Source: a virus. From it: 28,969 nt of DNA. The stretch is from IMG/VR virus record IMGVR_UViG_3300042466_001495, positions 1 through 28,969 of that record; one strand, written 5' to 3'. The notes below the pieces were generated by a model. The model saw nothing but the letters and a program-made list of their open reading frames with translations, searched no databases and had not been told where the DNA came from. Position numbers and translations under genes: made by a program. Position 1 is the stretch's first letter. Every line of letters begins with the position of its first letter. Positions 4,340 to 22,817 of the stretch are shown here, one piece after another.

Positions 4340-4391
4340 ATGAGGCTTTTTTTCTGAAACATTTGTTTAAATATTTGTTTTTCATTTAAAG

Positions 4392-4423: not shown

Positions 4424-4456
4424 TTTCAAATATCAATTTTAGATTTTATTATTTTG
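4424..4456 (+). promoter_or_regulatory. Late-type (class II) promoter for the HTH-terminase operon
   Basis: The upstream element TTTCAAATATCAA begins at 4424, exactly 25 nt before a -7-like box TTATTTTG (4449-4456; one mismatch to TAnnTTTG). An A-tract follows, with ATG at 4473, 49 nt from the element's first base. The 4421 and 12721 stretches align from TTCTTTCAAA to ATGGA without gaps. It is the weakest -7 box of the set. Confidence 0.6.
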
Positions 4457-4472
4457 TGAAAAAAACGTGTTC

Positions 4473-4703
4473 ATGGATTTAAAAGAGATGCGAGAGTATG
4501 CTGGATTCACACAAGAAGAACTGGCTAGACTAATTAGTGGCACTAATAACTCTTACAACAAATATAGAATATCATACATGGAAGGAGGGCATAGGTCGCA
4601 AGAAGGCAAAATAGGGCTAAACCTGCTCAAGAAATTAGCCACTGCTTGCGGGTGTGAGGTAGTTGTAACTTTTAAAGTAAAAGAAGATGGTATTCAGTCC
4701 TAA
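4473..4703 (+). CDS. Small XRE-type HTH protein upstream of terminase (possible small terminase or regulator)
   Basis: This 76-residue protein contains an XRE/Cro-like helix-turn-helix in the first ~50 residues: MREYAGFTQEELARLI, a turn, then a recognition-like helix around YRISYMEGGHRS. ATG 4473 is preferred over an in-frame GTG at 4467 because it gives the same promoter-to-ATG distance as other operons. It overlaps the terminase gene by 17 bp. The position just before terL is where small terminase subunits sit, and those are also HTH DNA-binding proteins, but 76 residues is short. A transcriptional regulator is the alternative. Confidence 0.65.
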   Translation: MDLKEMREYAGFTQEELARLISGTNNSYNKYRISYMEGGHRSQEGKIGLNLLKKLATACGCEVVVTFKVKEDGIQS

Positions 4704-6108
4704 AGAATTAAACAAGGCGTATTACGACCTAAGCGATAGTATAACCAAAAACACCTTTACAATCCTCTACGGTGGTCGTGGTAGCTCTAAAACACACTCT
4801 TTGTACCAAGTACTACTAAAGAAACTTTGGAACGAAGAGGGAACAAATGCGGTATTCTTTCGGAACGTGGGCTTAGGCATGAAAGAAAAGGCATTCAACC
4901 CATTCATGGCGATATGCAAGCAAAAAGGTGTAGAGAAAAGCCTAAAAGCAAACTTCTATTCAGACGTAAGGAATGTACACTTCCCGAAAGGCAACAGGCT
5001 TGTATTTGACCACATAGGAGCAGACGGTGGCGAAAGGAGTAAAGGATATGCGGGATTTAACTTAGTGGTAGTAGACGAGATAAACCAATGTAGAGAGGAA
5101 GACATAATGACGCTAATAACGTCTTTCAGGAGTGAAAAATCGACACACTTTGTATTCATGTTCAACCCCGTGAGCGAGATGCACTGGCTCAAGAAAGTAT
5201 TTTTTGACAACGTGCAAGAAGGCTCAATAGGCTCAAGAACAGCGAAGTACCACTACACATACAAAGATAACAAATTTGTAAACCAAGACTACATAGACAC
5301 CTTGGAGGGCTTGAAGTTCACTGACCAACAGAAGTACAAAGTGGAATGCCTTGGGCAGTGGGGTGTAATACAAACCAACAACCCGTTCTTCACGAACTTC
5401 AACTATAACCTCCATGTATGTAACGATGAGATACCTTTCTTCAAAGAGTATAAAGTATGCCTATCGTGGGACTTTGGCTTGGACGAGCATTTGGTGGTAT
5501 CTCAGCACTTCAAAGACTACGAGATAGCGGTGGACGAAAGGCTGCAGAAGTACTTTAAGCCAAACACGAACGGGGTGATATACCGAGACGAACTAAGCGA
5601 AGGCAGCCAAGAGAGCTTTAGCACCGGTATGACCAACATAGGCTTGATAGCTGAAAAGGTAATAAGGAAGTACGGAATAGATGCTGAATACGAGATAATA
5701 GGCGATAGTGCAGGATTAGGTAGGATAGGCAAGTTTACGGTGATTAGAGAGGAGTTCTTGAAGCGTGGAGCGGAGTTTTTGGACTTCCCATCGCTAAACA
5801 AGAAGCCAACGCATCACAACAGTAGGTCACATTGCGATTGGGTGTTTAGCAATTATAGGAGCAACTTCAAAGTGAGTGTAACTTGCCCGAGGCTAATCAA
5901 TGACTTGACAGTGTGTAGGTGTGATATGTATGGAGGCATAGACAAGGTGTGGGCAACGAACAACAACGTGTGCCACTTTAGTGATGCCTTGAGATACGAC
6001 ATAAATCAGTTTGAGTTGGAATCATTCCATAGCAACTACTTGAATATGTACGAAAGTACGATGAATGCTTTGCCTGAGAGGGGCTTTGCTAATTATCAGG
6101 TGTTGTAG
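4687..6108 (+). CDS. terL: Terminase large subunit
   Basis: This 473-residue protein is a DNA-packaging motor. The N-terminal ATPase shows Walker A YGGRGSSKT (28-36), Walker B LVVVDE (126-131, with Asp130 and Glu131) and the coupling-type segment FVFMFNP (155-161). The C-terminal RNase H-like nuclease shows candidate metal-binding acids Asp262 (SWDFG), Asp340 (GDSAG) and Asp433 (HFSDALRY). The length is usual for the family. It cuts concatemeric DNA and pumps it into the prohead with a portal that is not in this window. The gene follows the small HTH gene with a 17-bp overlap and is followed by a terminator, not by a portal gene, which is unusual. Confidence 0.96.
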   Translation: MVFSPKELNKAYYDLSDSITKNTFTILYGGRGSSKTHSLYQVLLKKLWNEEGTNAVFFRNVGLGMKEKAFNPFMAICKQKGVEKSLKANFYSDVRNVHFPKGNRLVFDHIGADGGERSKGYAGFNLVVVDEINQCREEDIMTLITSFRSEKSTHFVFMFNPVSEMHWLKKVFFDNVQEGSIGSRTAKYHYTYKDNKFVNQDYIDTLEGLKFTDQQKYKVECLGQWGVIQTNNPFFTNFNYNLHVCNDEIPFFKEYKVCLSWDFGLDEHLVVSQHFKDYEIAVDERLQKYFKPNTNGVIYRDELSEGSQESFSTGMTNIGLIAEKVIRKYGIDAEYEIIGDSAGLGRIGKFTVIREEFLKRGAEFLDFPSLNKKPTHHNSRSHCDWVFSNYRSNFKVSVTCPRLINDLTVCRCDMYGGIDKVWATNNNVCHFSDALRYDINQFELESFHSNYLNMYESTMNALPERGFANYQVL

Positions 6109-6112
6109 AAAG

Positions 6113-6148
6113 AAAAAAGGGCATAGAAAACTCCTATACCCTTTTTTT
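6113..6148. terminator. Bidirectional terminator between terL and the minus-strand cassette
   Basis: A run of six A (6113-6118), an 8-bp stem with one mismatch (6119-6126 with 6134-6141) and seven T (6142-6148) can end transcription from both the terL side and the convergent minus-strand operon, whose last stop lies 20 bp away. Confidence 0.85.
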
Positions 6149-6168
6149 ATAAACCTGAATAAAGTCAA

Positions 6169-6795
6169 TTACGATTCTGAATTAATCTTATCGTAATGCT
6201 TTATAAGCATATTTAAAGCATTATCTATATCTTTTATTCGTATTTCTGGCAAAGAAGTAACAATTATTATTCTTGCAAGCCTCAAAGGTATTATAAAAGA
6301 AAGTTTTACTTTGCCTTTTTTGCTTAACTCAACGGATGTAGTTATTCTACCTTCGTGAATATCATAGTCGTAATTCTTAACAATTAGACTTAGAAGTTTT
6401 TTGTGAGTCATTTCTAACTGTATATTGTTTTTTTCTGCCAATACAGTTATGGTGTTAGCAAGTGTTTTTGAGGTTACGATACGACCTTCTAAATCTTCTG
6501 TTTTCATTTTATTATTTATTTCAATATAATCTACGGTTCCGTCTTTAATTAATTTATCCAAAGATGCCACTCCGACCTTAACAAGGTTTTGCCCGTACAA
6601 ATCAGTCTCATAAACATTTATTATCTTTGAACCTTCACTAACTAGTAAATAGCAATAGTTTGCTGTTTCTGTCTGACCTAATTCTAATGAATAGTCAAAG
6701 TTAGAAAATTCACTATAATACTCGTCTTCTTTATCGATTTTGGTAAACCCACATTTCAATAAGACATCTAAACTTAATCCTTTTTTTGCTTTCAT
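6169..6795 (-). CDS. Hypothetical protein in minus-strand cassette
   Basis: This 208-residue soluble protein starts 12 bp after the Rha/ORF6-like gene and is probably co-transcribed with it. Its N-terminal half looks mixed alpha/beta. The C-terminal part (about 150-205) has a strand-rich segment followed by a long helix ending DIDNALNMLIKHYDKI. No motif I recognise. The gene is AT-rich, as is its partner. It could be a partner or target of the regulator, but the sequence shows no direct evidence. Confidence 0.6.
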   Translation of the reverse strand: MKAKKGLSLDVLLKCGFTKIDKEDEYYSEFSNFDYSLELGQTETANYCYLLVSEGSKIINVYETDLYGQNLVKVGVASLDKLIKDGTVDYIEINNKMKTEDLEGRIVTSKTLANTITVLAEKNNIQLEMTHKKLLSLIVKNYDYDIHEGRITTSVELSKKGKVKLSFIIPLRLARIIIVTSLPEIRIKDIDNALNMLIKHYDKINSES

Positions 6796-6807
6796 TTTTA
6801 TTTTATT

Positions 6808-7521
6808 TTATTTTAATTCTTTTGAAACTAATGCGTACAAGTTGTCAAGCTGATTTTCTCTTTCAACTATATCCAATAAAGTTTCCTTTGGATGCAACTT
6901 CTTGTAAGCATTTACATTAAATCTGTAAACATATAGCAATTTAGAATACATTTTATTCCAAATTTCTCTATAATCAATCTTTGTTTTTTCAGAGTAAGCT
7001 CTAACTATTTGATTAATCTTTAATCTTGTGCCTATTTCTGGAACTTCTTGATTACTTCTTTCAATATCATTTAACTCAAGCAAAGCAAGTTCTTTACTCT
7101 TTTCTATAATGTCAAGCTTGTTTTCTATATTACTCAATCTTGACTCATGGTTTTGCAATACCATAGCAGACTCAATAATTAATTCAATCTGAGTTTTAGC
7201 TTTAGGTGCGGAAAGTTCTTGCTCTAACTTTTCAATGTAAGCAATAACTGCCTTTCTTACAGTTTTTGATTCCCTTACTAACACTTGCTTTGCTTGTGAA
7301 AGTGTTAAATCAAACTTTGGATAAGTTTGCCCATTTTGATTATGTAGATACGGGGTATGGGAAATTTTTCCCAGTGAAATTTCATCTTCAAACTCATCAC
7401 GGATAACTTTTAATAAGTCGTTGTGACCCAGTTCTTTTTTCCCATCTTCTTTTCTAAAAATGTTAATTTGCTCAACCAATTCAAGCGAGCTAATAGTGTT
7501 TTTGTTTTGCAATAATTGCAT
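6808..7521 (-). CDS. Rha / ORF6N-like phage regulatory protein (antirepressor type)
   Basis: The 237-residue protein has an N-terminal winged-helix-like region (residues ~8-100) in the style of phage regulatory Rha/ORF6N proteins: SSLELVEQIN, HNDLLKVIRDEFE, then YPKFDLTLSQAKQVLVRES and a helix ending YIEKLEQEL. A polar linker helix follows (~105-150). The C-terminus (~170-237), with RLKINQIVRAYSEKTKIDYREIWNKMYSKL-type residues, resembles the C-terminal domain of ORF6-type antirepressors. Such proteins alter repressor control or host DNA binding. Transcription comes from a consensus host-type promoter at 7646-7676, with a ~118-nt structured leader. Orientation against the late genes suggests expression in the prophage or early in infection. 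Confidence 0.7.
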   Translation of the reverse strand: MQLLQNKNTISSLELVEQINIFRKEDGKKELGHNDLLKVIRDEFEDEISLGKISHTPYLHNQNGQTYPKFDLTLSQAKQVLVRESKTVRKAVIAYIEKLEQELSAPKAKTQIELIIESAMVLQNHESRLSNIENKLDIIEKSKELALLELNDIERSNQEVPEIGTRLKINQIVRAYSEKTKIDYREIWNKMYSKLLYVYRFNVNAYKKLHPKETLLDIVERENQLDNLYALVSKELK

Positions 7522-7639
7522 AATTGTATTAAATTAAAAAAAGCCCCAACTGACTCTTACGTTTGACAAGGGCACGAATGAACCCAACGCTTGAGCCAAT
7601 TGAGGCTAAATATCTTTTTTCGTTTTTTGGCTGTCAAAC
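7522..7639 (-). promoter_or_regulatory. Structured 5' leader with terminator-like hairpin and competing pairing
   Basis: Read as minus-strand RNA, 7607-7593 and 7556-7542 form a 15-bp stem whose three non-Watson-Crick positions are all G-U. These would be C-A mismatches in plus-strand RNA, so the structure fits minus-strand transcription. A U-tract follows (7542-7536), giving an intrinsic-terminator form within the leader. The very 5' end of the predicted transcript (GTTTGACA, 7639-7632) is perfectly complementary to TGTCAAAC at 7568-7561 in the hairpin loop, so a pseudoknot or mutually exclusive fold is possible. Attenuation or a ligand/protein-responsive switch is inferred. Confidence 0.5.
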
Positions 7640-7645
7640 CATGCA

Positions 7646-7676
7646 CAAAAGTAAAACCAATTATCATAAAAACAAA
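7646..7676 (-). promoter_or_regulatory. Host-type promoter of the minus-strand cassette
   Basis: Reading the minus strand, TTTG (7676-7673), 19 nt, then TACTTTTG (7653-7646) matches the Bacteroidota primary-sigma consensus TTTG-N19-21-TAnnTTTG. A second TTTG lies at 7680-7677. The start point expected ~7 nt downstream is near 7639. Confidence 0.75.
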
Positions 7677-7699
7677 CAAAATCAAAAAAAATAAATATT

Positions 7700-7732
7700 T
7701 ATCAAAAAGCAATTTGCCAAACTTTAAATTTG
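7700..7732 (+). promoter_or_regulatory. Late-type (class II) promoter for the 7750-12709 operon
   Basis: TATCAAAAAGCAA (from 7700) is followed 25 nt from its first base by TAAATTTG (7725-7732), a seven-A tract, and ATG at 7750 (50 nt from the element). No TTTG occurs at the host -33 position. Confidence 0.7.
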
Positions 7733-7749
7733 CACAAAAAAAGTTCGAG

Positions 7750-8433
7750 ATGAGGGATGTTGGTCAATGTATTACCTACGACTGCAACGAGAGATTACCA
7801 GTGTATAGCGTGTGTCTAAAAGGCTTCATAGTCTTTGTGCCAACCTTGCAAGTGGGTAGCCATGTAGATGCAATGATATACGCCAAAGATAGGATTTGGT
7901 GCTTGAAGGCAAAGGTATTGTGCAACAACTACGTGATAATAGAGTGGTCTCCTGCCAACTTCATAGAAGAAGAGGCATACACGGTATCAATAGAAATATT
8001 GCAGAAAGGAGAGCGTGTTTTACTGCCTTATGGTGCATCATGTGAAGACGAGTGTGGCATAAGTATAGAACTAAGCAATAAAGTGGCTTGTAAGAAAGAT
8101 TATGCTGTACTAAATTGCGGAGAATTCAAATTCAAAGTAGAGTACAAAGTAAACAAGTGCGAGTGGACAATGGAGATTTATAAATGTAAATGGACAATAA
8201 AAATGGCTAATAAAATAGACTACGATGGGGTGGTACATAACATACCCAACCCGACATTACAAGAGAACGGGGCAACAATAATAAATCCCGACTTTATAGA
8301 CTACTTAGAGCTACTTGAAGAAGGGGCATTTGTGGTGACATTGGTAGGTGACAAAGTAGAAATAGAATACACTGGCACTTATGTAGTGGAATTTTGGTCT
8401 AATTGTGGAATATTAGAAAAAACTTGTTTATGA
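7750..8433 (+). CDS. Cysteine-rich hypothetical (probable virion) protein
   Basis: This 227-residue protein starts at ATG 7750, just after the class II promoter. An upstream in-frame non-ATG extension would overlap the promoter and is rejected. It is strand-rich, with many Cys (near residues 7, 12, 22, and clusters such as CEDECG and CNNYVIIEW) and a C-terminal domain ending in EYTGTYVVEFWSNCG. It shares an ATGA with the next gene. I do not recognise a family. As the first gene of a late operon in front of tail genes, a structural role is likely. Confidence 0.6.
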   Translation: MRDVGQCITYDCNERLPVYSVCLKGFIVFVPTLQVGSHVDAMIYAKDRIWCLKAKVLCNNYVIIEWSPANFIEEEAYTVSIEILQKGERVLLPYGASCEDECGISIELSNKVACKKDYAVLNCGEFKFKVEYKVNKCEWTMEIYKCKWTIKMANKIDYDGVVHNIPNPTLQENGATIINPDFIDYLELLEEGAFVVTLVGDKVEIEYTGTYVVEFWSNCGILEKTCL

Positions 8434-8972
8434 TTGAATTTAGAAGAGAAAGCATGACAAGAGTAAATGTTTTCGAAAACGGTGAAAACATAGGCTACAT
8501 AAAGGACAGTTGCTGCTACACGCTAATAAAGAGCAACAACATAAAGAACGCTATAAGGGTGGACTACCAAGTAGGCAAAGGTGGCTTATTGGCTAACAAC
8601 TACAAGACCAACTTGCACTTGGAGTTTAAGAGGTCGGGTAGCCAAGGTAACTATAATGACTTCTTAGGGCAATACGAAGCAAAGGTAATGAGCGGGGAGA
8701 TAGTAGGCGAGTACGACTTAGCATTAAAGGAAATATTCAAAAGAAGCCACGAGAACAAAGCATACCCTTACTTGGCGAACAGTACGACTATAATGATAAG
8801 CGTAAACGACATAGTGAGTGGTAAGTACTTAACTTCGATAGAATCAAAGAAATTCAAGGTGTTTATAGAGGATGTGGCGACAAAGAAGTCAACTATTCAC
8901 TACACGACAATATCTGAGTACCCACAATTTATAGAGAAGTTTTCAGACACAACTAAATATAGAATACGATGA
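8430..8972 (+). CDS. Hypothetical late protein
   Basis: This 180-residue soluble protein starts in an ATGA overlap at 8430; an internal ATG at 8454 (MTRVNVFENG) is an alternative start. It is mixed alpha/beta, with a strand-like N-terminus, a charged middle and a C-terminus rich in T, S and K. No known motif. The tight coupling on both sides places it in the same late operon as the putative tail proteins. Confidence 0.6.
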   Translation: MIEFRRESMTRVNVFENGENIGYIKDSCCYTLIKSNNIKNAIRVDYQVGKGGLLANNYKTNLHLEFKRSGSQGNYNDFLGQYEAKVMSGEIVGEYDLALKEIFKRSHENKAYPYLANSTTIMISVNDIVSGKYLTSIESKKFKVFIEDVATKKSTIHYTTISEYPQFIEKFSDTTKYRIR

Positions 8973-9085
8973 CAAAGGGAAATTTTTATACCAACTTAAA
9001 AAAGACTGCACAAGGAACAAAGACTGCACCCGTGGCGATTGTAAGAAAGCCGAGCGGATGTTCTACTTGTGGTAAAAGAAAGTAA
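8969..9085 (+). CDS. 38-residue basic protein with C-terminal CxxC
   Basis: ATG 8969 overlaps the preceding stop as ATGA, and the frame ends at TAA 9085, 1 bp before the next ATG. The product is basic and ends GCSTCGKRK, a CxxC pair that could bind metal together with another chain. Its tight fit between two genes, without a gap, supports translation. The function is unknown. Confidence 0.55.
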   Translation: MTKGNFYTNLKKTAQGTKTAPVAIVRKPSGCSTCGKRK

Positions 9086-9086
9086 C

Positions 9087-9350
9087 ATGGATTTAATGAC
9101 GCTAAAGGAAATATACTATGGCTACAAGTGGCTTATATTGAGCAAATTTGGCTATTGGGATAAAGACATAAAAGCAGAAAGGGATAGAAAAGCCAAGATA
9201 TGCACAGAAGCCTGCCCTCTAAGGGGTAAGTACTTGGGCATAGTGCCTATGTGTGATATGAACAAGACACACGAAGGAGAGCAAGGCTGTGGGTGTGTAA
9301 TAGAGGCAAAATTGTGGAGCGAAAGTGAGTGTCCATTGGGTAAATTTTAA
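9087..9350 (+). CDS. Small Cys-rich (putative zinc-binding) phage protein
   Basis: This 87-residue protein has a helical N-terminus and a Cys-rich C-terminal half: C-TEACPL, PMC, GCGC and ECPLGKF, giving about seven Cys in 45 residues. The order CPL ... GCGC ... K ... CPLGK(F/W) is a pattern I associate with small conserved phage proteins that probably bind metal; no enzymatic activity is known to me. ATG 9087 is preferred to an upstream in-frame TTG that would overlap the previous gene. Confidence 0.6.
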   Translation: MDLMTLKEIYYGYKWLILSKFGYWDKDIKAERDRKAKICTEACPLRGKYLGIVPMCDMNKTHEGEQGCGCVIEAKLWSESECPLGKF

Positions 9351-9353
9351 GAT

Positions 9354-10349
9354 ATGAATTGCGAGAAAAAAGGTTTTAGAGATTGCTTTGACATTGGTAC
9401 AAGACTATGTAACGATGTAGAACATGATAGTTATATAGAAGAAGTGAGTGGCATATCTGCACACTTGGTGAAAGCTTTACGTGAAGACCAAACACAATCA
9501 TTCTTGGACTTTGTGGAGCAGGTGAAAAGGGATACATGGAGTAGCTTCAAAAAAGAAGTGGAGTGGGGCTTCGGGAAGCAAAAGAAATTTAATCATATTG
9601 TGAGCCAAACTGAGCCTTATTCAATCGACAAGGAGCGAAGAGTATTCAAAGTAAAAGGAATAGAAGGCTATAACCTAACGATGCCTTACGAGGACTTTGT
9701 GGAGCTTAGGATAGCAGAAATAGGGCTATATGCCAAGACTGGTGGCGATGGGGAGTTTTTGGTGATAGACCTAAGCACGGGGGAGACCTTATACCGACAA
9801 GAGATTAAAATAGAAGTAGGCAAGCAAAAGATAGCCATAAACACCGTAATATTAAACGACTTTTCTTTAGACCTATTCATAGGAATAAAATCAGACACAG
9901 CGGTGTTCTTTGATATGGCTTGCAAGGAATTTAAACCATGCTGCCAATGCCTATGTGAGACACAAGAAGAGATAGGAAGGATTCAGAACTGTGAAGGCAA
10001 GAGCATAGATAATATTGAGTGGATAGCCAACAAGGCTTTTTGTTTAAAGGCTGAGATAGGGTGCAACTTTGAAGACATATTGTGCGAGTACGCCAAATAC
10101 TTTATTGAAGCAAGGAATTATAGCATAGCGATAAAGATACTCGAAGAGAAGCTAAATAGCTACCAAAGAGGGTGGTTTAGCGATGCCAACGTGGAAACTG
10201 TAAGGGAGCAACTATTGCCTGACTTAAAGACAAGGTATTATGAGCTTATTGGCTTAGCTATAACCAATATAAAAGACATTATGGATGGTTCTATTTGTTG
10301 GGAGTGTGATAGCTTATCTGCTACACACCCTATGATTGGCTCAATTTAA
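9354..10349 (+). CDS. Cysteine-rich hypothetical (probable structural) protein
   Basis: This 331-residue protein starts 3 bp after the previous gene. A helical N-terminus (~1-65) leads into a strand-rich middle (~80-185), a Cys cluster KPCCQCLCE near residue 195, and a helical C-terminus (~225-315) with NYSIAIKILEEKLNSYQRGW-type residues and a final CWEC. About fifteen Cys is unusual for a virion protein, and structural disulphides or metal binding are possible. The family is not recognised. Its place before the 610-aa tail-like gene suggests an assembly or virion role. Confidence 0.55.
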   Translation: MNCEKKGFRDCFDIGTRLCNDVEHDSYIEEVSGISAHLVKALREDQTQSFLDFVEQVKRDTWSSFKKEVEWGFGKQKKFNHIVSQTEPYSIDKERRVFKVKGIEGYNLTMPYEDFVELRIAEIGLYAKTGGDGEFLVIDLSTGETLYRQEIKIEVGKQKIAINTVILNDFSLDLFIGIKSDTAVFFDMACKEFKPCCQCLCETQEEIGRIQNCEGKSIDNIEWIANKAFCLKAEIGCNFEDILCEYAKYFIEARNYSIAIKILEEKLNSYQRGWFSDANVETVREQLLPDLKTRYYELIGLAITNIKDIMDGSICWECDSLSATHPMIGSI

Positions 10350-10361
10350 ACCAAGTAAGCC

Positions 10362-12194
10362 ATGGCATTTGAAATCTACGTAGACAAATTTAAGCTTGAC
10401 GAAAGTAAAATAGATGGCTTCGAGTCTTTCTCTATCGAAAGAGGCTTAGATGATTTCTACTTCGGCTATTGGAATAATCAAGGCTTAGGCTTAGCCACCT
10501 CCCAAGCCGACCTAAAGATAGAAATAAAAGACCCGAACGTGGCGAACTACATAAAGTCCAAGTTCGAAAAAGACGGATTTAACGCAAACGTAACGGGTAA
10601 ATTCATAGATAAAGCAAGCAACAACAGCTTTGAGATGCTTGTGGATTTTGGCACTTACGAAGAAATAGGATGCTGCAACGTGGCATTTTCTTTCAGACCC
10701 AAAGGCTCAGGCGACCTAATAAGGGCAAGGGAGAAGGTAGAATATGGCTTACAGCTAAACACCCAGATACAAGTACCACTCCGAGACCTCCCAACGCAAG
10801 TGAACTATGAAGGACAAGACGTAAACTACATAGGCGATGGGAGCATGAACCACTTTATCCCCTTGAAAGTAGCCGAAAACACCTTTAGTGGTGGGGTGGC
10901 TTCGGACGTAAACATAGGCTCAACAAATGCCTTCTTTACAAGCTCAATAGAATCTTGCATAACGATAACAGGCTCATTGACCTTTACGGCATTAGCTAAC
11001 GACTCAGGAACGTTTGGGGTGTACTTAAACGGATTCTTGATAGACACTTTCCCGATAAGTGCGACAGTGAGAACGCAAACTGTGACATTGAACACCAATA
11101 TCAACGTATTAGCAAACGAAGGCATAGAATTAGAGATAAGAAGTAGCTTCAACTCAAATTATAGCTTCACATACTCTAAGTCTTTAGTAGCAATAAACAT
11201 AGAGAAATGTACGGACACGGAGATAGAGTGGAAACCCGTAAAGGCAATAAGTGTAAGGGAGGCATTCAGGCAACTACTACAAAACACTGGCAAGGCTACC
11301 TTAGACGAATACATATTTGACGATTGCATATTTGATGGATATTTGACCAACAACAAAGGCTTAATAAACGAATCAAGCGTAATAAATGTGAGCTTGTACG
11401 ACTTGTTTGATGAGCTAAACAACAAATACCCTGCAAGCCTAAGTATAGAAGGCACGAGTGCAAGGCTGATGGCAAGGTGTGAGTTCTTAAAGTGCAACAA
11501 GCCTTACAAGGTAAAGGCAATAGAGGCAAGTAGGGAAATAAACGAGGACATAGTATTCAGCTCGGTGAAAGTAGGCTACAACAATTGGAAAGCTGACAAC
11601 AAATTTGGCTCTGTGGAGCATAACGGCAAAAGAGACTATGAATCAAGCTATGGTTTAAGCAGCAAAACATTGTCTCTATTGAACGATTGGAGTTCAAGTA
11701 GTAGTATCATAAGCGAGCAGATAAGAAAGGAGAAATCAAGCGAAGAAATACATTGGATAGTGGTGGATAAGGCAACGCTAAGAGCCGAGACTGACCAATA
11801 CATAAGCACCGACTTGGCACAAAGCGATAGGCTAATAAACCTAAGGATAACACCTGCAAGGAATGCAAATAGGTGGGCGAAGTTTATCGCTAACGACTTG
11901 GTGTTTACTACGGGCGAGGGTAATTACAATTTTACTTCAACCGACACTTATGACTGCAACTGCAACGAAGTGGAAGGCACAATAGACGAGAACGCTAACA
12001 TAAAGACCCAAAGCATCTTAGACCCATTTGTGTACAAATTTGCTTTGGCTAAATGTAAGACGGACGTGAATAGGCTAAAAGGGTGCGTGCAATTTGAATA
12101 CTGTGGCAAGACTAAAGTAGGCTTCATAAAGTCGTTTAAGTATTCCACTGATAGCAATGAGGATATAGAAATTGAAGCAATAGGACTGAAATGA
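10362..12194 (+). CDS. Putative tail / baseplate structural protein
   Basis: This 610-residue protein has a strand-rich N-terminal domain (~1-130) and a central jelly-roll-like insert (~165-285, ITGSLTFTALANDSGTFGVYLNG) that could bind carbohydrate or pack against a neighbour. Helical segments follow (~300-370), then a long C-terminal part with RLINLRITPARNANRW (~495-510) and a Cys-rich CNCNEVEGTIDEN region. Large proteins of this style occur in tail modules of Bacteroidota phages, but the assignment rests on size, composition and position. It shares an ATGA with the next gene, a neck-like protein. Confidence 0.5.
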   Translation: MAFEIYVDKFKLDESKIDGFESFSIERGLDDFYFGYWNNQGLGLATSQADLKIEIKDPNVANYIKSKFEKDGFNANVTGKFIDKASNNSFEMLVDFGTYEEIGCCNVAFSFRPKGSGDLIRAREKVEYGLQLNTQIQVPLRDLPTQVNYEGQDVNYIGDGSMNHFIPLKVAENTFSGGVASDVNIGSTNAFFTSSIESCITITGSLTFTALANDSGTFGVYLNGFLIDTFPISATVRTQTVTLNTNINVLANEGIELEIRSSFNSNYSFTYSKSLVAINIEKCTDTEIEWKPVKAISVREAFRQLLQNTGKATLDEYIFDDCIFDGYLTNNKGLINESSVINVSLYDLFDELNNKYPASLSIEGTSARLMARCEFLKCNKPYKVKAIEASREINEDIVFSSVKVGYNNWKADNKFGSVEHNGKRDYESSYGLSSKTLSLLNDWSSSSSIISEQIRKEKSSEEIHWIVVDKATLRAETDQYISTDLAQSDRLINLRITPARNANRWAKFIANDLVFTTGEGNYNFTSTDTYDCNCNEVEGTIDENANIKTQSILDPFVYKFALAKCKTDVNRLKGCVQFEYCGKTKVGFIKSFKYSTDSNEDIEIEAIGLK

Positions 12195-12709
12195 TAACCA
12201 TAAACGTTGACAGCAAAGGTATTGACCGCATGATATTCAAGCTTGAAAAGAGAGTTGAAAGCTATGCCGATGCCGTAAACGACACCATGGAATATGGTCG
12301 TGACTTGATTCTTTCAAGAGTGGAAGGAGGAAACATGGCTAATGGGCAATTCCGTATAAGCAAGGCAAAGAAGAAGTTCGGGCGGTATTCATTCGATTAC
12401 GGTAAATACGATAGGGCTAAGAACGGGCTACCAACGGCAAAGGTAACGCTAAAATACACTGGTAACATGTTCAAGAACTTTCTTATCACAAGGGCTACCA
12501 AGGTAAACGTAAGGAATAGATTATACAAACGTTCACTTTATTTTTCAAGCAACTTCGCTGTGAGGTCAAATGGCACAAGGAGTGATATAACTTACAACGA
12601 ATTGGCTCAAATCCACGATGAGAAGTTCGGAAGCTCAAACTACAACATGAGTATGGCACAAGCCAAAAAGACTTTAACTTTCTTCAAACAAAGAATCCAA
12701 AGACTTTAA
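12191..12709 (+). CDS. Putative neck / tail-completion (virion morphogenesis) protein
   Basis: This 172-residue basic protein has a long N-terminal helix, a disordered Gly/Lys-rich middle, then KYTGNMFKNFLI...RLYKRSLYFSSNFAVR and a C-terminal helix. This order resembles HK97 gp10-like and Mu gpG-like virion morphogenesis proteins, which sit at the head-tail interface or complete the tail. The match is by general pattern only. It is the last gene of the 7750 operon, with a new promoter beginning 15 bp later. Confidence 0.5.
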   Translation: MITINVDSKGIDRMIFKLEKRVESYADAVNDTMEYGRDLILSRVEGGNMANGQFRISKAKKKFGRYSFDYGKYDRAKNGLPTAKVTLKYTGNMFKNFLITRATKVNVRNRLYKRSLYFSSNFAVRSNGTRSDITYNELAQIHDEKFGSSNYNMSMAQAKKTLTFFKQRIQRL

Positions 12710-12723
12710 TATTTTTACAATTC

Positions 12724-12756
12724 TTTCAAAAAGCAACTTCCAATACTTTATTTTTG
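12724..12756 (+). promoter_or_regulatory. Late-type (class II) promoter for the tail operon
   Basis: TTTCAAAAAGCAA (from 12724) lies 25 nt before TATTTTTG (12749-12756), followed by an A-tract and ATG at 12773, 49 nt from the element's first base. It is nearly superimposable on the element before 4473. Confidence 0.7.
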
Positions 12757-12772
12757 CTAAAAAAAGAAGTAA

Positions 12773-13207
12773 ATGGACTTTAGCGAGGTTGTAGAGCAAA
12801 TCAAAGACGTGTTCTGTGGTGACATAGAAGACTACGGAATTTTAGACCAAACCAACGGGCGTGGTGGCGAAACATTGCTACGCAGAATCAACTCTTTCAA
12901 CAACTTCACACCAATAACATACAAAGGAGGCAATATGATATTCGCTATTGCTAGCGATACAATAGAGATTGACCGACACTCCAACGCAACTGTGCCTGTA
13001 AAGCTAATACTAATAGTAAACGATTGGTATGTGCTTGGAGAGGTAATAAAGGCGTTAGACATGAAAGAACTCCAAGAGGTAAGCATAGACACCGACTCGC
13101 TTGCGGTGTACGAGAGATACTTTACACCGAGCGATGATAGACCTTTCTCTAACTATGCCTTTGAGCTATCATTTAACACGAACGAAACAATTTTAAACAA
13201 AGAATAA
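12773..13207 (+). CDS. Hypothetical tail-operon protein
   Basis: This 144-residue acidic, alpha/beta protein is the first gene of the tail operon and abuts the chaperone gene without a gap. In siphoviruses this position is often held by a tail terminator, tail tube or connector protein. The length fits a tail terminator better than a tube protein, but no motif decides it. Confidence 0.55.
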   Translation: MDFSEVVEQIKDVFCGDIEDYGILDQTNGRGGETLLRRINSFNNFTPITYKGGNMIFAIASDTIEIDRHSNATVPVKLILIVNDWYVLGEVIKALDMKELQEVSIDTDSLAVYERYFTPSDDRPFSNYAFELSFNTNETILNKE

Positions 13208-14029
13208 ATGAATTGGAAATTTTGGCAAAAGAAGAAAGAGGAAGCACCCGTATTTAACACGAGCAAGGACGAAATGGAAGTGGATAAGGTAGAACCACAC
13301 TTTTACTTCAAGGACGCAATGAGCAAGGGTATAATAGCCAAGGAGAAGCTATTTACTTTGAACGGAAAGGACTACTACAGCTTCGCTGACGGGCTGGGCA
13401 TGATAACGGCTAAGAGGTATTTGCATTATACATCAACAATGCGATTCTACGAGGAGAACGGGGTGAATCAAATGGTGTCTTTGGATTATTTGCAGGACAT
13501 AAAAGAGCAAGTAGAGGAGCTTGCAGACCTTACATACGATGATATGGTATTCAAAAAGAAGCACACGGAGGTAATGGCGACAATAAGCACCTTCGAATAC
13601 CACTATCAAAACTTTAATTTAGAGAATGCAATAGCCGAGGTATGTGCTATTGCTATCATAGGAGAAGATGAAAATCCTTACGATTTAGACCATAACGCTA
13701 CATTGAGAAAGATATTTGACTTTAACACAGCAATGAAAGCTACTGTCGATGGAGGCGATGATAATTTAACAAATTTTTTTTGGAGGTTTTCTGGACTTGG
13801 AAGCCTCGATTGGATCAAACAATTCAAGGAATCAATGCCCTCTACGGGGTTAAGTCAGGAAAGCCAAGAGAAGAAAAACCACTTGAGAAATTTGTTAATT
13901 TTAGATTTGCAGAAGCACAACGAGCATTTGCAAGAGTTAAGGTTGAAAAAGACTTCCTCGAATCTGCCACGGGCATATCGAGTAATTTACAATTGGATAG
14001 GTTTAAGGTCGAACAGTTTTCAATCCTAG
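13208..14029 (+). CDS. Tail assembly chaperone, zero-frame product (G-like)
   Basis: The zero-frame product is 273 residues. The N-terminal ~190 residues (MNWKFWQKKKEE..., then helical segments such as YLQDIKEQVEELADLTYDDMVF) are read in both products. The position directly before the tape measure gene and the slippery site at codons 188-191 fit the lambda gpG/gpGT chaperone scheme, in which short and fused forms occur in a fixed ratio and coat the tape measure protein during tail assembly. Unusually, the zero frame stays open for another 82 codons beyond the slip, rather than stopping nearby. Confidence 0.7.
   Translation: MNWKFWQKKKEEAPVFNTSKDEMEVDKVEPHFYFKDAMSKGIIAKEKLFTLNGKDYYSFADGLGMITAKRYLHYTSTMRFYEENGVNQMVSLDYLQDIKEQVEELADLTYDDMVFKKKHTEVMATISTFEYHYQNFNLENAIAEVCAIAIIGEDENPYDLDHNATLRKIFDFNTAMKATVDGGDDNLTNFFWRFSGLGSLDWIKQFKESMPSTGLSQESQEKKNHLRNLLILDLQKHNEHLQELRLKKTSSNLPRAYRVIYNWIGLRSNSFQS
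13771..13807 (+). promoter_or_regulatory. Predicted -1 programmed ribosomal frameshift signal
   Basis: In the zero frame the site reads A AAT TTT TTT TGG, giving two overlapping slippery heptamers: A_AAU_UUU (13771-13777) and U_UUU_UUU (13774-13780). A 9-bp hairpin (13783-13791 with 13799-13807, 7-nt loop, two G-U) starts 5 nt after the first heptamer. A -1 slip joins the zero frame to the open frame at 13780-14109. Confidence 0.75.
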
Positions 14030-14109
14030 ACTATATAAGCAACGTCTTGTTAGTGAATGAAAGAATTTCAAAGCATAACGAGGAAATAGAGAAGGCACAA
14101 AAGAAATAA
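13780..14109 (+). CDS. Tail assembly chaperone, frameshifted extension (T-like)
   Basis: Read after a -1 slip, this frame adds 109 residues to the shared N-terminus, giving a fused product of about 300 residues. It has no ATG of its own near its start. The extension is helical and charged (FRFAEAQRAFARVKVEKDFLES..., ending KHNEEIEKAQKK), as expected for the part that contacts the tape measure protein. It ends 19 bp before the tape measure ATG, whereas the zero-frame product would leave a 99-bp gap unlike the rest of the operon. A sequencing error in the eight-T run is the alternative explanation. Confidence 0.7.
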   Translation: MEVFWTWKPRLDQTIQGINALYGVKSGKPREEKPLEKFVNFRFAEAQRAFARVKVEKDFLESATGISSNLQLDRFKVEQFSILDYISNVLLVNERISKHNEEIEKAQKK

Positions 14110-14128
14110 CACACAACTTTACAAAGAT

Positions 14129-17100
14129 ATGGCACAGACAGTGGACAGTGCGAAGTTTGATTTTATCACCGACTTATCCGACATCAATCAGCTTATAGCA
14201 AGGCTAAAGACGGTATCTATAACAACAAAGGAGCTTGCCGAGGCGACAAAGTATCTCACGCAACTTTCAAGGGCAAACGCTGCCGAGCAAAGGGCTGCAA
14301 TAGCCGACTTGAACAAATTGACGGCACAGAGTAGGCTCCAAACGCAACAAGAAAGGGAGGCGGCTGCCGCTACGAGGGCATCAATAAATGAAATACAACG
14401 CAAGAGGCAAGAGTTAAAGCTACAAAACGAGCAGATGGGCAAGACAGCCAACGGGATGAACCAATTCCGTGGGTCAATAGACTTGCTTAGAAGCTCAATG
14501 GGTGGTCTTGCTGCGGTGATAGGGGTTAATAGCTTCTTAGACTTCACTACTAACATATTTAACGCACAGTCGCAAATACAAGCGTTTAAGTTATCATTGG
14601 ATGCCTTACTAAAAGACAAGACGGCATCTGCTGGTTTATTTGCTGAGGTAAAGGAATTTGTAAAAGAAAGTCCTTTTCAATTTGAGGAAACGGTGACAAG
14701 TGTACAAAAGCTTATATCGTCTTTCAAGGCGGTAGGATTAAGTGCGGCTGAAATAGAAAAAAAGACAATACCTGTATTAAGGTCATTAGGTAACTCTGCA
14801 AGTGCCTTGGGATTGGGTGACGAAGGGTTGAAAAGGTTGATATACGCATTTACTCAGGTGCAATCGGCTGGAAAGCTAATGGGTACTGAACTAAGGCAGA
14901 TAAACGAGACGGGTATTCCGATGTTGTCTTTATTGGCTGAACAGACGGGCATAAAGATACAAGATATGGCTAAGGCTATATCTGACGGTAAAATAAGCTT
15001 TGAGATATTTGAGAAGGCTATATTGAGTGCAGGAAATGCTGGCGGAGTATTTGCGGGCTTAATGGACATTCAAGCACAAACCGTTGCGGGTAGAATAAGT
15101 AACTTAAAAGATACGGTTTTCTACGCAATGGGGCAAATAGGCGACTATTTCCAAGGCACGGGAAAAAGTTTTCTTTCTTTTGCTACAAGTGTAGTTGAGG
15201 GTCTTGCAGGTACTGAGGCGGCATTTGCACGTACTATGACTGTGGTAAAGAACTTGGCTCAGTTTTTTGCAAGTTACAAGGCACTGCAAATACTTCTTAC
15301 GGCTAAGAATTACCTAATGGCAGAAAGCCAAAAGGCTGTAAATTTGGTAGTGGAAGAAGGTGTATTGGCTAAGCAAGCATCAATAGCTAAGGCGGTGGAA
15401 ATGACCAACGCTGAAACGGCTGAGGCGGCAGCGATAAATCAGACTAGGCTAGCGATAAGTGCAAAGACTGCGGAGGAGTTAAAGTTGATTGAAGTCGAAA
15501 TGAAGGCAATGAACAGAATGACCTTGAAGCAAGAAGGGTACAGGAATGAGATTTTGTTACTTGAAAAACAAATTACAGAGACGTGGAAGTTGATAGAAGC
15601 AAACTTGCAATTAACTGCTTCAAATAAGCAAGATATTATATCAAAGAATGAGCTTATAGCAACTAATCAAAAGGAAATATTAACTCTTCAAGAGAAATTA
15701 GCACAACAAGAAAAGATAATTGTATCTAATAGGCAAGGCAGGGCAGATAAGGCTCTTAGTATAAAAACTATAAAGGATGAGATATTAGCTAAAAGGCAAC
15801 TTGTAATTACTACCGAGCAACAAGTAAAAGCAATGGAGCTGGAGAACTTGGAACTCAAAAAGATAAACTTACAAAAAGAAAAAAACATAGCTACAAATGG
15901 TAAGCATATAAATTCAAATCAAGCGGAAATAGCTTCAATAGAAAAAAAGATACTTGCCAAGGAAAAAGAAATAGGCGTAAGCAGAGCTGCATCTATGCAA
16001 ATAGCGGCTGAAATGGCGGCTACGGATGCAAATACGGCATCAAAAATAAAGGCTACAACGGTACTTGGTAGATTGGCTACTGCAACAAAGGCATGGGCTG
16101 CGAATTTGTACGCTACTATGGGACCAATGGTTGCTTGGACTGCTGGTATATATGCGGTAATAAAGGCATTTGAGATGTTATCAGATGCACAAGAAGAGTC
16201 TAGGATGTCAACTTTGAAAGGAGCTATTGCCAACAACGAGGAGGCTAACTCTATGATTGTTAAGAACAAACTTGCAAATCAAGAAATAAATAACTTATCA
16301 AAACTCAAAGAGGGCAGTGACGAATATAGGATAGCGGCCAAAAGAATTATAGACCAATATCCTGATTACTTCAAGGGTATGGATGCAAGTACGGCAAGCA
16401 TGAAAGACTTTAACTCTTCAATAAGAAGTAGCAATAGCCTTTTAAGTACAAATATTGCATTACTTGCACAACAAGCTAGATTAGACTTTAATAGTGACAA
16501 GATAAAAACATTACAGCAAAGTCTTTCTAAGGCGGCACAGAATGATTTATTTAAGAATGTTGATTTTTCTGACTTAGAAAAGGCTTCTGGACAATTAAAG
16601 AGGATGCTAAGTCAATCGGGTAGAGACACTGGTACAGGCTTGTATATAGCTGAACAACTAAAAAATTTACAAGACCTTAAAAAGTACCAAACCAATGTTA
16701 TAGAAATCAACAAACAATCTGACAAGATAGAAAAAGAAAGAATTAACAAGCAAAGGTCTAATTTGGAAGCAGAAAGGGGCATTGCTTTAAAAAAGAGCAA
16801 AAATAATGAGGAAAGGCTTAAAATAAATGAAGAATATGACCGCAAAATAGAGTTCCTTAATAATTCTCAATTAGAAAAAGAGGGCAAATTTGCTACTGAA
16901 TTGGAAAAGGCTGGCGACAAAAAAGCCCAAGGCATCAAAGCCTCAGGCCAAAAGCAAAAGCAGGCACGCCAAGAAATAATAAGTGACTTAGAGAAATCGC
17001 TAAGGGCGGAGGCTACGGCACTGCAAGAAGCGGAGGACAACTGGCGTAACGGATACGACATAAAGTACAAACTATACTTGGCCGACATGGAGAACGCCAA

Positions 17101-19417
17101 GAAAAACATCAAAGACAAGGAAAAGCTAAAGGCGAAGGAACTTGAAATAGAAACTAAGTTTATAGAGGATATAAACAAGCTAGACAAAGGTGAATCCGAA
17201 AGAATAAAGAAAGAGCAAGAGAAGACAAATGAGGAGGTATTAAAACAAATAAAAGAATTTGGAGACGACCGAGTAGCCTTGCAAAAAAGCATAGACAAGA
17301 GAATTGAAGATGCAGAAAAGGAGGCATTGGATTTGCAAAGAAAGAATATGCTTTTAGACCTTGACCAAAGGAAATTAGAAAAGATAGGCTTAGCTAAGAG
17401 CAACGATGAGATAATAAAGATAGAAAAAGAATACCAAGAGGATTTAAGGAAGCTAAGAATAAAGTTTGAAGCGGAGGATGTGGCGAGGTTACAAGATTCT
17501 TTAAACGCCAAAAAGTCTTATGTAAACAACTTAAAGTCTGAGTATTGGGATAAGTTACTAAAAGACCAAAAGCTAAGCGAGGAGCAACGTTTGGAGTTAA
17601 TGATGGCATTTGCTGACAAGATGGACAAGGAGTTTGAGGAGTTTGCGGTAAATAATGCTTTTCAACAGCAAAAGCACGCTGACAACATGGTGTCTATAAA
17701 CAAGGAAAGCTACAAGCAACAAGCGGAAGATGCGGCTAAAGGCAGGCAGCAACTCATAAAGGAAATAGAAGACACCAACAAGAAGATTGAGGAAACTTTA
17801 GGCAAAAGAGAGGAAAGGAATTTGCGTGCCTTGATAACTTTCACCAATTCTACTGTAAGCACATTAGAGAACTTTGTGGACTTGTATGAGAATAGTGAAA
17901 ACGAGATAGACAAAATAAATGGCCGAATGGTCAAGGGAATCATAAAGCAAGGTAAAGATTTTGCTTCTGCACTAAGGGATATAAATAGAGAAAGAATAAA
18001 GGGGCTAGAAGACTTAATAACAGAAGCCAAAAAGAACCATGAAAAATTAAAAGAAGTTCACAAAGATGGTTCTGATGCAAGCAAAGACATACTTGCTAAG
18101 TCTTTAAAAGACATACAAGAGCTTGAGGGCGAGGCAATGATGCAAAGGATAAAAATTGCTGGTGCTGGGGTTAAGGCTTTGTTGCAAATAACTAATACTT
18201 TCTTAAATGCAAAAAGACAAAAGGAAATAGCTGCGGCTCAAAAAGAAATAGAGCTTTTAGAAAGCACATGGGCAAAGAGAGAAAAGATTTTGAATGACGA
18301 ATTCAAGAATACTCTATCTACTATTGACAACCAAACACAACAATTATCCGAAAAGGAAGATGAGAAATACCTTACAAGCCTTTCAAAGTTAGCAAATAAC
18401 GAAGCTGAGGCAAACAGAATCATGTCTAACTATTTCACCGAAAGGGCAAATATATACGACAAGTATGCTGACTTGGTGGCATCCAAGGATGAGTCTATTG
18501 CGAGCAAAGCTAGGCAAATGAGAGACGCTGATTTGGCTAATTTGTCACAATATACCGAATCTGCCTTAGGTATATTGGTAACTGATAAAGACAAACAAGA
18601 GGCACTTGCTAAGGCAAAAGGTGAAAATGTTTCTCAAATTGAAAAGGATGCGAACTTTAAAAAGCTAGAAGAAGAAAAGGCTCAGAGCGATAGGGTTAGA
18701 AAGGAAAAGTACGATAATGATGTAAAGCTTTGGGAGGCCAAAAAGAAAGCGTTGGACGCACAACACAAATTGGATGTTCAAAACTTTAGATTTCAAAAAG
18801 CAATGGCTATTGCCGAAATAGGGATACAAGCTGCTATTTTAACTGCAAAATTAGCCGCTGTTTCTTTGGGTACAGCAACTGGAGTCGGCATAGCAATTGG
18901 AGTAGGCCTTATTGCTGCGGCTCTACTTATTAAGCCACCAGATGCACCAACTTATCCCGAAGCTCCCGACTTCGCCAACTACGAAAAAGGGATAGACGAC
19001 ACTACTGTGGACTCCAAGCGAAGCAAAAGGGTGGACAACAAAGGTGGCTACAAGGCGACATTGCACCCAGGGGAAGCCGTATTCAACAAGAAAGACATGG
19101 ACTCTATGACAAGGGCTAACAACGGCATAAGGCCTACAAGGGCAGACGTAGTGGACGTATTCAATAGCCACAAGAATGTAATGTATAAATTAGACACAAG
19201 CCCTGCGATAGCTCCTTATGTACTAAATGGCATGATTAAGGATATGGGGCTAAGAGACGAGCTTATAAACGTGAAAAAGGAAATCATGGGTATGCGTAGT
19301 GAGTTTTCTAAGCCAAGCGTAAGTGTGAACTTAGACAAGAAAGGCATGAATGTATATGAGCAAAAAAGAAGCCACACCGTGAAGAAAATGAGCTCACGGT
19401 ATCGGATTAACATCTAA
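14129..19417 (+). CDS. Tail tape measure protein
   Basis: At 1762 residues this is the longest gene in the window. The N-terminus is helical (coiled coil ~35-105). Residues ~135-340 match the conserved tape-measure domain pattern, including SPFQFEETVTSVQKLISSFKA, LRQINETGIPMLSLLAEQTG and a MDIQAQTVAGRISNLKD-like segment. Long coiled-coil stretches follow (~500-640, 830-1460). A Gly/Ala-rich hydrophobic segment near residue 1580 (LGTATGVGIAIGVGLIAAALL) may insert in a membrane during DNA entry. The C-terminus contains GYKATLHPGEAVFNKKDM. The protein sets tail length, acts as scaffold for tail tube assembly, and depends on the chaperones encoded just upstream. Its 3' end overlaps a minus-strand gene by 24 bp. 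Confidence 0.93.
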   Translation: MAQTVDSAKFDFITDLSDINQLIARLKTVSITTKELAEATKYLTQLSRANAAEQRAAIADLNKLTAQSRLQTQQEREAAAATRASINEIQRKRQELKLQNEQMGKTANGMNQFRGSIDLLRSSMGGLAAVIGVNSFLDFTTNIFNAQSQIQAFKLSLDALLKDKTASAGLFAEVKEFVKESPFQFEETVTSVQKLISSFKAVGLSAAEIEKKTIPVLRSLGNSASALGLGDEGLKRLIYAFTQVQSAGKLMGTELRQINETGIPMLSLLAEQTGIKIQDMAKAISDGKISFEIFEKAILSAGNAGGVFAGLMDIQAQTVAGRISNLKDTVFYAMGQIGDYFQGTGKSFLSFATSVVEGLAGTEAAFARTMTVVKNLAQFFASYKALQILLTAKNYLMAESQKAVNLVVEEGVLAKQASIAKAVEMTNAETAEAAAINQTRLAISAKTAEELKLIEVEMKAMNRMTLKQEGYRNEILLLEKQITETWKLIEANLQLTASNKQDIISKNELIATNQKEILTLQEKLAQQEKIIVSNRQGRADKALSIKTIKDEILAKRQLVITTEQQVKAMELENLELKKINLQKEKNIATNGKHINSNQAEIASIEKKILAKEKEIGVSRAASMQIAAEMAATDANTASKIKATTVLGRLATATKAWAANLYATMGPMVAWTAGIYAVIKAFEMLSDAQEESRMSTLKGAIANNEEANSMIVKNKLANQEINNLSKLKEGSDEYRIAAKRIIDQYPDYFKGMDASTASMKDFNSSIRSSNSLLSTNIALLAQQARLDFNSDKIKTLQQSLSKAAQNDLFKNVDFSDLEKASGQLKRMLSQSGRDTGTGLYIAEQLKNLQDLKKYQTNVIEINKQSDKIEKERINKQRSNLEAERGIALKKSKNNEERLKINEEYDRKIEFLNNSQLEKEGKFATELEKAGDKKAQGIKASGQKQKQARQEIISDLEKSLRAEATALQEAEDNWRNGYDIKYKLYLADMENAKKNIKDKEKLKAKELEIETKFIEDINKLDKGESERIKKEQEKTNEEVLKQIKEFGDDRVALQKSIDKRIEDAEKEALDLQRKNMLLDLDQRKLEKIGLAKSNDEIIKIEKEYQEDLRKLRIKFEAEDVARLQDSLNAKKSYVNNLKSEYWDKLLKDQKLSEEQRLELMMAFADKMDKEFEEFAVNNAFQQQKHADNMVSINKESYKQQAEDAAKGRQQLIKEIEDTNKKIEETLGKREERNLRALITFTNSTVSTLENFVDLYENSENEIDKINGRMVKGIIKQGKDFASALRDINRERIKGLEDLITEAKKNHEKLKEVHKDGSDASKDILAKSLKDIQELEGEAMMQRIKIAGAGVKALLQITNTFLNAKRQKEIAAAQKEIELLESTWAKREKILNDEFKNTLSTIDNQTQQLSEKEDEKYLTSLSKLANNEAEANRIMSNYFTERANIYDKYADLVASKDESIASKARQMRDADLANLSQYTESALGILVTDKDKQEALAKAKGENVSQIEKDANFKKLEEEKAQSDRVRKEKYDNDVKLWEAKKKALDAQHKLDVQNFRFQKAMAIAEIGIQAAILTAKLAAVSLGTATGVGIAIGVGLIAAALLIKPPDAPTYPEAPDFANYEKGIDDTTVDSKRSKRVDNKGGYKATLHPGEAVFNKKDMDSMTRANNGIRPTRADVVDVFNSHKNVMYKLDTSPAIAPYVLNGMIKDMGLRDELINVKKEIMGMRSEFSKPSVSVNLDKKGMNVYEQKRSHTVKKMSSRYRINI

Positions 19418-19798
19418 GCGTGCTTTTGAGCGATATAAGTTAATAAGGTTAATAAAGTTCTTGCTTGGTTTTCTCTTTGGGATATACCCCGATTCGTACA
19501 TAAAAATCGTGGTGTGGCTTATATTACTTTTGTATTTGAGTTGATACATAACAACAACGTCCTTCACGGTAACCCTGAGTGATTTCTTGCGGAACTCCCG
19601 AAGGCTTTTGCCCATGATGGTGTATTGGTGCTTGCGGTGGTACTGGTGTGGAATCCTTCCTTCCCTAAGCCAACGGTAGCCCGTGAAGTAAGACAGGTTG
19701 TATTGCTTTAGGACACGCTTAACCTCCTCGAAAAACTCCTCTTCGTATTTGCCTTTTGGCTTGCGTAATTCTATGTAATCTTTGTGAAACAGCTTCAT
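19394..19798 (-). CDS. Putative DNA-binding protein (regulator candidate)
   Basis: This 134-residue, very basic protein has two stretches that could form helix-turn-helix units: residues ~25-50 (VKRVLKQYNLSYFTGYRWLREGRIP, which resembles a MerR/excisionase-like HTH) and ~78-125 (VVVMYQLKYKSNISHTTIFMYESGYIP, which is XRE-like). It is convergent with the tape measure gene and divergent from 19898. Its own promoter belongs to the same class as the late operons, so it is expected to be made together with virion proteins. A regulator of late transcription is possible but not shown. Confidence 0.55.
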   Translation of the reverse strand: MKLFHKDYIELRKPKGKYEEEFFEEVKRVLKQYNLSYFTGYRWLREGRIPHQYHRKHQYTIMGKSLREFRKKSLRVTVKDVVVMYQLKYKSNISHTTIFMYESGYIPKRKPSKNFINLINLYRSKARLDVNPIP

Positions 19799-19814
19799 TT
19801 GTGTTATTTTTTTG

Positions 19815-19847
19815 CAAAATTATTGAATTGTTACTAAAAATTAGATA
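19815..19847 (-). promoter_or_regulatory. Late-type (class II) promoter, minus strand
   Basis: On the minus strand, TATCTAA starts at 19847, TAATTTTG lies 25 nt further (19822-19815), an A-tract follows and ATG is at 19798, 49 nt from the element. Only the TATC.AA core matches the plus-strand elements; geometry is identical. Confidence 0.55.
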
Positions 19848-19849
19848 GT

Positions 19850-19882
19850 TATCAAAAAGTAAATTAGCTTTTTTTAGTTTTG
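19850..19882 (+). promoter_or_regulatory. Late-type (class II) promoter for the 19898 operon
   Basis: TATCAAAAAGTAA (from 19850) is 25 nt before TAGTTTTG (19875-19882), followed by an A-tract and ATG at 19898 (48 nt). It is back to back with the minus-strand promoter: the two TATC cores form GATA-GT-TATC. Confidence 0.7.
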
Positions 19883-22553: not shown

Positions 22554-22817
22554 ATGGAAGAGAAAAAGAAATACGAAATAAGCATAGAAGTGTGGGATAT
22601 ATTAGAGAAATACAATGCTCTAATGGAGCGTGGTGTAACTTGTAAGACCTTGGCAATAGAAACTGGGGTATCTTACCACTACTTCTACAAAATGGTAGTA
22701 GAAAGGAGCGTGCCACCATTTAAGACGGAAAGTATGTTAGAAAAGGCAAAGGACTTCTTGCGGAGGAATGACGTAAGGGAACTATTGGCAATAAGTAAGT
22801 CGAAGTTGATAAAGTGA
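22554..22817 (+). CDS. Small HTH protein, early regulator candidate
   Basis: This 87-residue, Lys-rich protein has a helix-turn-helix-like segment at about residues 20-52 (YNALMERGVTCKTLAIETGVSYHYFYKMV). It is transcribed from the operator-containing early promoter, divergent from the antirepressor, and followed by a terminator, so it is a single-gene unit. This fits a Cro- or repressor-type switch protein. Target and exact family are unknown. Confidence 0.65.
   Translation: MEEKKKYEISIEVWDILEKYNALMERGVTCKTLAIETGVSYHYFYKMVVERSVPPFKTESMLEKAKDFLRRNDVRELLAISKSKLIK

Follow-up and report, generated by a model that had tools for sequence, protein, structure and literature searches.

A 10-bp element at a fixed distance from a host-type -7 box before late-type genes of a tailed phage

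The window, by which we mean the whole stretch of DNA analysed, contains five T[AT]TC[AT]AA elements, each lying exactly 25 nt (start to start) 5′ of a T[AT]nnTTTG box. The genes marked by the element are probably turned on late during infection, because it precedes each block of particle-building genes at a fixed distance, lies in the slot of a host promoter box and is almost absent from other genomes; late timing is taken here solely from the kind of genes downstream.

The window is the complete IMG/VR record IMGVR_UViG_3300042466_001495 (28,969 bases, classed linear). Its gene content is that of a tailed phage, with a large terminase, a tape-measure protein, a virion protein, a DnaD-like helicase loader and a primase/helicase, and it also encodes a chitinase-class (GH19) lytic enzyme and two antirepressor-type genes. 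The terminase reaches about 27% identity with its best matches in the phage collection. The described phages with the closest primases are Cellulophaga phi10:1 (50% identity) and Tenacibaculum JQ, and Bacteroides and Riemerella phages are among the top matches of the tape-measure protein. On these matches the host is almost certainly a Bacteroidota bacterium; we take the phage to be a siphophage. Bacteroidota are major bacteria of the gut and the sea, their main sigma factor is unusual, and the late switch of their phages is hardly known. In the literature searched we found nothing on Bacteroidota phage late promoters; what we found on the late switch concerned timing only, for crAss001.

Geometry and genomic setting of the element

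All five elements proposed in an earlier, sequence-only reading of this DNA were recovered, together with the 25-nt spacing and an ATG 48–50 nt from the element (Table 1). The full core TWTCAAAAAG is present in three copies only, which match TWTCAAAAAG-N15-TAnnTTTG exactly. The plus-strand consensus put forward earlier, T[A/T]TCAAAAAGcAA, therefore describes the AAAAAG core at 7700, 12724 and 19850 and not at 4424, where the element is intermediate. The minus-strand copy and the 4449 box had been called weaker, and they are: the element at 19847(-) is without the AAAAAG core, and the box is an exact TAnnTTTG at four of the five sites, with one mismatch at 4449.

Table 1. Positions of putative promoters and candidate regulator genes in the window. 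Element and box are separated by 15 nt; transcription starts are predicted from the F. johnsoniae rule (PMC6847099)
Feature	Span	Strand	Element	-7 box	ATG	Element to ATG (nt)	Predicted start	Remarks
Putative late promoter 1	4424..4456	+	TTTCAAATAT (4424-4433)	TTATTTTG (4449-4456)	4473	49	~4461	
Putative late promoter 2	7700..7732	+	TATCAAAAAG	TAAATTTG (from 7725)	7750	50	~7737	
Putative late promoter 3	12724..12756	+	TTTCAAAAAG	TATTTTTG (from 12749)	12773	49	~12761	
Putative late promoter 4	19850..19882	+	TATCAAAAAG	TAGTTTTG (from 19875)	19898	48	~19887	
Weak divergent copy	19815..19847	-	TATCTAATTT (from 19847)	TAATTTTG (from 19822)	19798	49		Faces minus-strand gene 19394-19798
Small XRE-type HTH protein	4473..4703	+						PHROG 1373, E=3.5e-6; HTH_31/HTH_3 below cut-off
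87-aa protein, possibly HTH-like	22554..22817	+						Weak matches only: transcriptional regulator PHROGs, E 0.14-0.22
134-aa protein	19394..19798	-						Weak HTH_17/HTH_3 matches, E=0.044 and 0.34

The strict composite TWTCAAAAAG-N15-TAnnTTTG occurs three times in the window and was absent from 100 dinucleotide shuffles. A relaxed composite, TWTCWAA-N18-TWnnTTTG, found exactly the five sites against 0.10 expected (largest shuffle value 1), so that the shuffle check proposed earlier came out in favour of the motif. When offsets from 15 to 40 were scanned, all five sites fell at 25, with a single other match, at 38. TWTCAAAAAG alone is present four times (0.78 expected), the fourth being at 18791, inside the tape-measure gene. 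A position matrix built from the four plus-strand sites scored them at 25–29 bits and the next match at 15 bits; as it was trained on the same four sites, it shows separation and not discovery. A scan for E. coli-type promoters was not above shuffles.

In F. johnsoniae numbering the first T of the box is at -12, and transcription starts 4–5 nt after the G (PMC6847099). The element then spans approximately -37 to -28, and the predicted leader is 11–13 nt long at all five sites. A distance of 25 nt from start to start corresponds to a 4-nt box plus a 21-nt spacer, and the element thus occupies the host -33 slot (TTTG-N19-21-TAnnTTTG). In this slot (19–21 nt spacer) all five sites have TTTC or TATC and none has TTTG, as had been claimed. 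The sequence-only reading had treated the element as separate from the missing -33 box; since it lies in the slot itself, the absent TTTG and the new element are one fact and not two. The further claim that the early promoters do carry TTTG at -33 was borne out for the host-type boxes at 22541 and 7653(-), where TTTG lies at 23 nt, but not for the other early-type boxes, with TTTG at 26 nt (22936), at 27 nt (22453(-)) or lacking (21495(-)).

Downstream of the sites are the large terminase gene (4687-6108, reached from promoter 1 through the small HTH gene 4473-4703), a virion-protein operon, an operon leading to the tape-measure gene, and the genes from 19898. The sites fill each intergenic gap longer than about 60 nt before late-type genes, in the late half of the plus strand. 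An intrinsic terminator (4388-4416) lies just 5′ of promoter 1. The weak minus-strand copy stands back to back with promoter 4, and a dyad, GATAgtTATC at 19844-19853, is located exactly between these divergent promoters, 19847(-) and 19850(+).

Conservation and occurrence in other genomes

Relatives were sought by the terminase, the 610-aa virion protein and the 144-aa protein. This yielded a single sister contig and no others: IMGVR_UViG_3300048583_000401, about 92% identical to the window over most shared structural genes. Promoters 1–3 are kept in the sister, with sites 1 (at 4852) and 2 (at 8109) identical and site 3 at 13132. Over the three 33-nt sites there was one change in 99 nt, against approximately 8.4 expected at 8.5% divergence (P ~0.002; the divergence was taken from neighbouring aligned DNA, so that the expected count and P are approximate). 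The change, T to A in site 3, is at the degenerate A/T position, where the sites differ among themselves in any case. Window and sister cease to be similar within about 10–20 nt upstream of the element at sites 2 and 3; at site 1 the identical block also extends into the terminator's 3′ arm. The sister contig stops short of the point corresponding to promoter 4, and no relative covers the weak copy at 19847(-). The four strong sites are those of one phage, three of them common to one relative. A degenerate fourth copy, CATCAAAGAT-N15-TAAATTTG with the 25-nt spacing, is found in the sister at 15343, before the tape-measure ATG and just behind an HNH gene inserted on the minus strand. The tape-measure gene of the window has neither an HNH insertion nor a promoter copy before it.

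In 296 Bacteroidota genomes (~1.1 Gb) the composite matched 5 times, compared with about 10 for a reversed control. It is no commoner than the control, and is therefore not a host promoter type. A tighter pattern, including the A-run and the ATG, was found in 2.9 million viral contigs twice in the sister and in four contigs where the match lay inside open frames. In 84,980 GTDB genomes it gave 44 loci, most of which lay within ORFs or had the wrong strand relative to genes, with one convincing cellular promoter, before der in a Bacteroidota MAG. Judged by the host-genome, viral-contig and GTDB scans, the combination of element and box is particular to the window and sister pair. Being kept in the sole relative and foreign to the host repertoire, it agrees with the earlier description of a promoter class that is specific to the phage, rigid in geometry and placed at late operons. 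A host-type TTTG-19-box pattern, used as a positive control in 13 genomes, gave 4 against 2 and was too strict to inform. A broad scan of viral contigs for TWTCAAAAAG-N15-TAnnTTTG returned at least 118 stretches, which looked like chance and had no consistent distance to an ATG.

Proposed mechanism and alternatives

We consider it somewhat better than an even chance that the late promoters are used by the host sigma-ABfr polymerase acting at the -7 box together with a phage factor at TWTCAAAAAG, which replaces -33 recognition in the manner of T4 middle promoters. The TAnnTTTG box would be read by the host RNA polymerase carrying sigma-ABfr, the main sigma factor, and TWTCAAAAAG would substitute for the host TTTG at -33. 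Most likely, a DNA-binding protein encoded by the phage and produced at an earlier stage of infection would bind the element. It would hold the polymerase there through contacts with sigma region 4 or its surroundings, like MotA at T4 middle promoters, and transcription would then begin 11–13 nt before each ATG. The elements, their spacing, their conservation and their restriction to the phage pair are seen directly in the sequence; promoter activity and late timing are inferred, as is the binding protein, both that it exists and which protein it is.

The sites resemble sigma-ABfr promoters (TTTG / TAnnTTTG) in their -7 box and in the register of the 21-nt spacer, and differ from them in that TTTG is replaced by a 10-bp element not favoured by host genomes. 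In T4 the host -35 gives way to the MotA box, located at approximately -35 to -26 (PMC2988021). As at T4 middle promoters (MotA/AsiA), a host -10-type box is kept, a phage element of about 10 bp lies in the upstream slot, and several operons have the arrangement with fixed spacing. The sequences are unrelated, the MotA box being WWWTGCTTtA, 12±1 bp from the -10 (PMC2988021), whereas TWTCAAAAAG lies 15 bp from the -7 box. The polymerase here is also different, being of sigma-ABfr type, and no relative of MotA or AsiA was found. Phages Mu (protein C) and P2 (Ogr) have scattered late operons with one activator-type element and no good upstream host box. An element common to several late operons is found here too, but the C and Ogr sites differ in position and form, lying further upstream and being dyads or larger; no C or Ogr relative was seen in this phage.

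The main alternative, given the weak -33 box of at least one host, is that these are ordinary host-type promoters read by sigma-ABfr polymerase alone. TWTC would be a one-off TTTG and the A run the AT-rich stretch near -28, and the likeness between sites would reflect shared ancestry or strong-promoter selection, with no phage factor. In F. johnsoniae RNA-seq the -33 motif is barely evident, and AT-rich stretches near -18 and -28 are stronger (PMC6847099); for an element in the -33 slot (spacer 21) host polymerase might therefore suffice, and the earlier premise that a missing TTTG needs a replacement is weakened. The A-tract after the box, proposed as a feature of the class, is present but ordinary for Bacteroidota, in which upstream adenines help translation start (PMC6847099). 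Because A-rich leaders are normal in the phylum, the A-tract and the short leader need no special explanation. The promoter before der also has the same arrangement in a bacterial genome. We nevertheless regard host polymerase alone as rather unlikely. The composite was not enriched in the 296 Bacteroidota genomes, AT-richness is a much looser property than the 10-bp core, which the sister retains, and the phage has TTTG instead at its early or accessory promoters 22541 and 7653(-).

Two further explanations concern the shared sequence itself. The element could be an operator at which a phage repressor silences late genes in the prophage, to be relieved by the two antirepressor-type genes (6808-7521 and 21599-22426). 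Overlap of the element with polymerase contacts and the dyad at 19844-19853 are in keeping with this. TWTCAAAAAG is not itself a dyad, however, and none is present at the other sites; operators usually tolerate shifts in position, whereas a single orientation and distance to the -7 box is that of an element working with polymerase. An operator is, for these reasons, improbable. Promoter cassettes might instead have been copied by recombination along with accessory-gene insertions, leaving a shared sequence that reflects history and not function. Three of the sites adjoin minus-strand accessory genes, sister site 3 aligns with window site 2 over 63 bp at 82.5%, and sites 2 and 3 may be duplicates of each other, because they have spacer bases in common. 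Copying may thus explain these bases, but not sites 1 and 4, whose spacers show no relation to the other two. The single sister change at a degenerate position and the end of conservation just 5′ of the element at sites 2 and 3 also speak against it, and we give it very little credence as a general account.

Candidate regulators and related phages

Small HTH-like genes are present at 4473, 22554, 19394(-) and 25489, with no confident assignment and none tied to the element. The XRE-type HTH gene, the first after promoter 1 (sister counterpart 4901-5134), encodes a candidate regulator. The gene for the 87-aa protein lies in the replication half, where it is the first after the host-type promoter at 22541, and its product is a speculative candidate for an early-made activator. 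Equally speculative as a regulator is the 134-aa protein, whose gene is divergent from promoter 4. Its structure model was uninformative (pLDDT 43), and it had no relatives in viral contigs and no PDB match. Neither a portal gene nor a major capsid gene was identified in the window; the contig may therefore be incomplete, and the regulator may lie beyond it. An element of fixed geometry with core TCAAAAAG and a short list of candidates allow the late switch to be examined with reporter assays. Together they would also provide phage-driven expression in a phylum for which genetic tools are few.

In Cellulophaga phi10:1 (NC_021802), boxes at 25974, 32104, 36041 and 40961 have ACTATAAAT or TATAAATAAATTTT 16–18 nt before TAnnTTTG, and a box at 14774 has TTTG at 24 nt. 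The promoters of its portal, prohead protease and tail genes appear to resemble those described here in having an AT-rich element at a near-fixed distance and no TTTG. The ACTATAAAT-like element differs in sequence, is nearer the box and is less specific, and the likeness was noticed by comparison. In Riemerella phage PJN03, ACTATAAAT is found 17 nt before a box upstream of the capsid operon (13572 -). The phi10:1 promoters suggest that late genes in this group of phages may generally have upstream elements peculiar to each phage. We put forward only tentatively, and with more doubt than belief, that the present phage is the first case of phage-encoded sigma-ABfr appropriation, in which one 10-bp element would define the whole late regulon, and that other Bacteroidota phages such as phi10:1 use other elements alike.

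Two distant genes of Riemerella phage RAP44, 12817(+) and 32109(-), have an identical box and leader, TATCTTTGcgacataactaatttaaaatttaaaact, and this pair is apparently a copied accessory-gene promoter.

Three minus-strand leaders, one in the window (7529-7660(-)) and two in the sister (15207-15330(-) and 7694-7850(-)), form the same long hairpin (-40 to -45 kcal/mol) with a U-run directly before the start codon. They precede unrelated accessory genes (antirepressor-type, HNH endonuclease), and their stem sequences differ while the pairing is kept. Among viral contigs the core pattern was found only in the sister; Rfam gave no match to the leaders and otherwise nothing convincing. The arrangement suggests an attenuator or regulated leader RNA common to all three.

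Two overlapping frames lie before the tape-measure gene in both phages (window 13208-14109, sister 13614-14506), with a T run (TTTTTTT, 13774-13782 in the window) at the start of the overlap in each. This is a probable -1 frameshift of tail-assembly chaperones.
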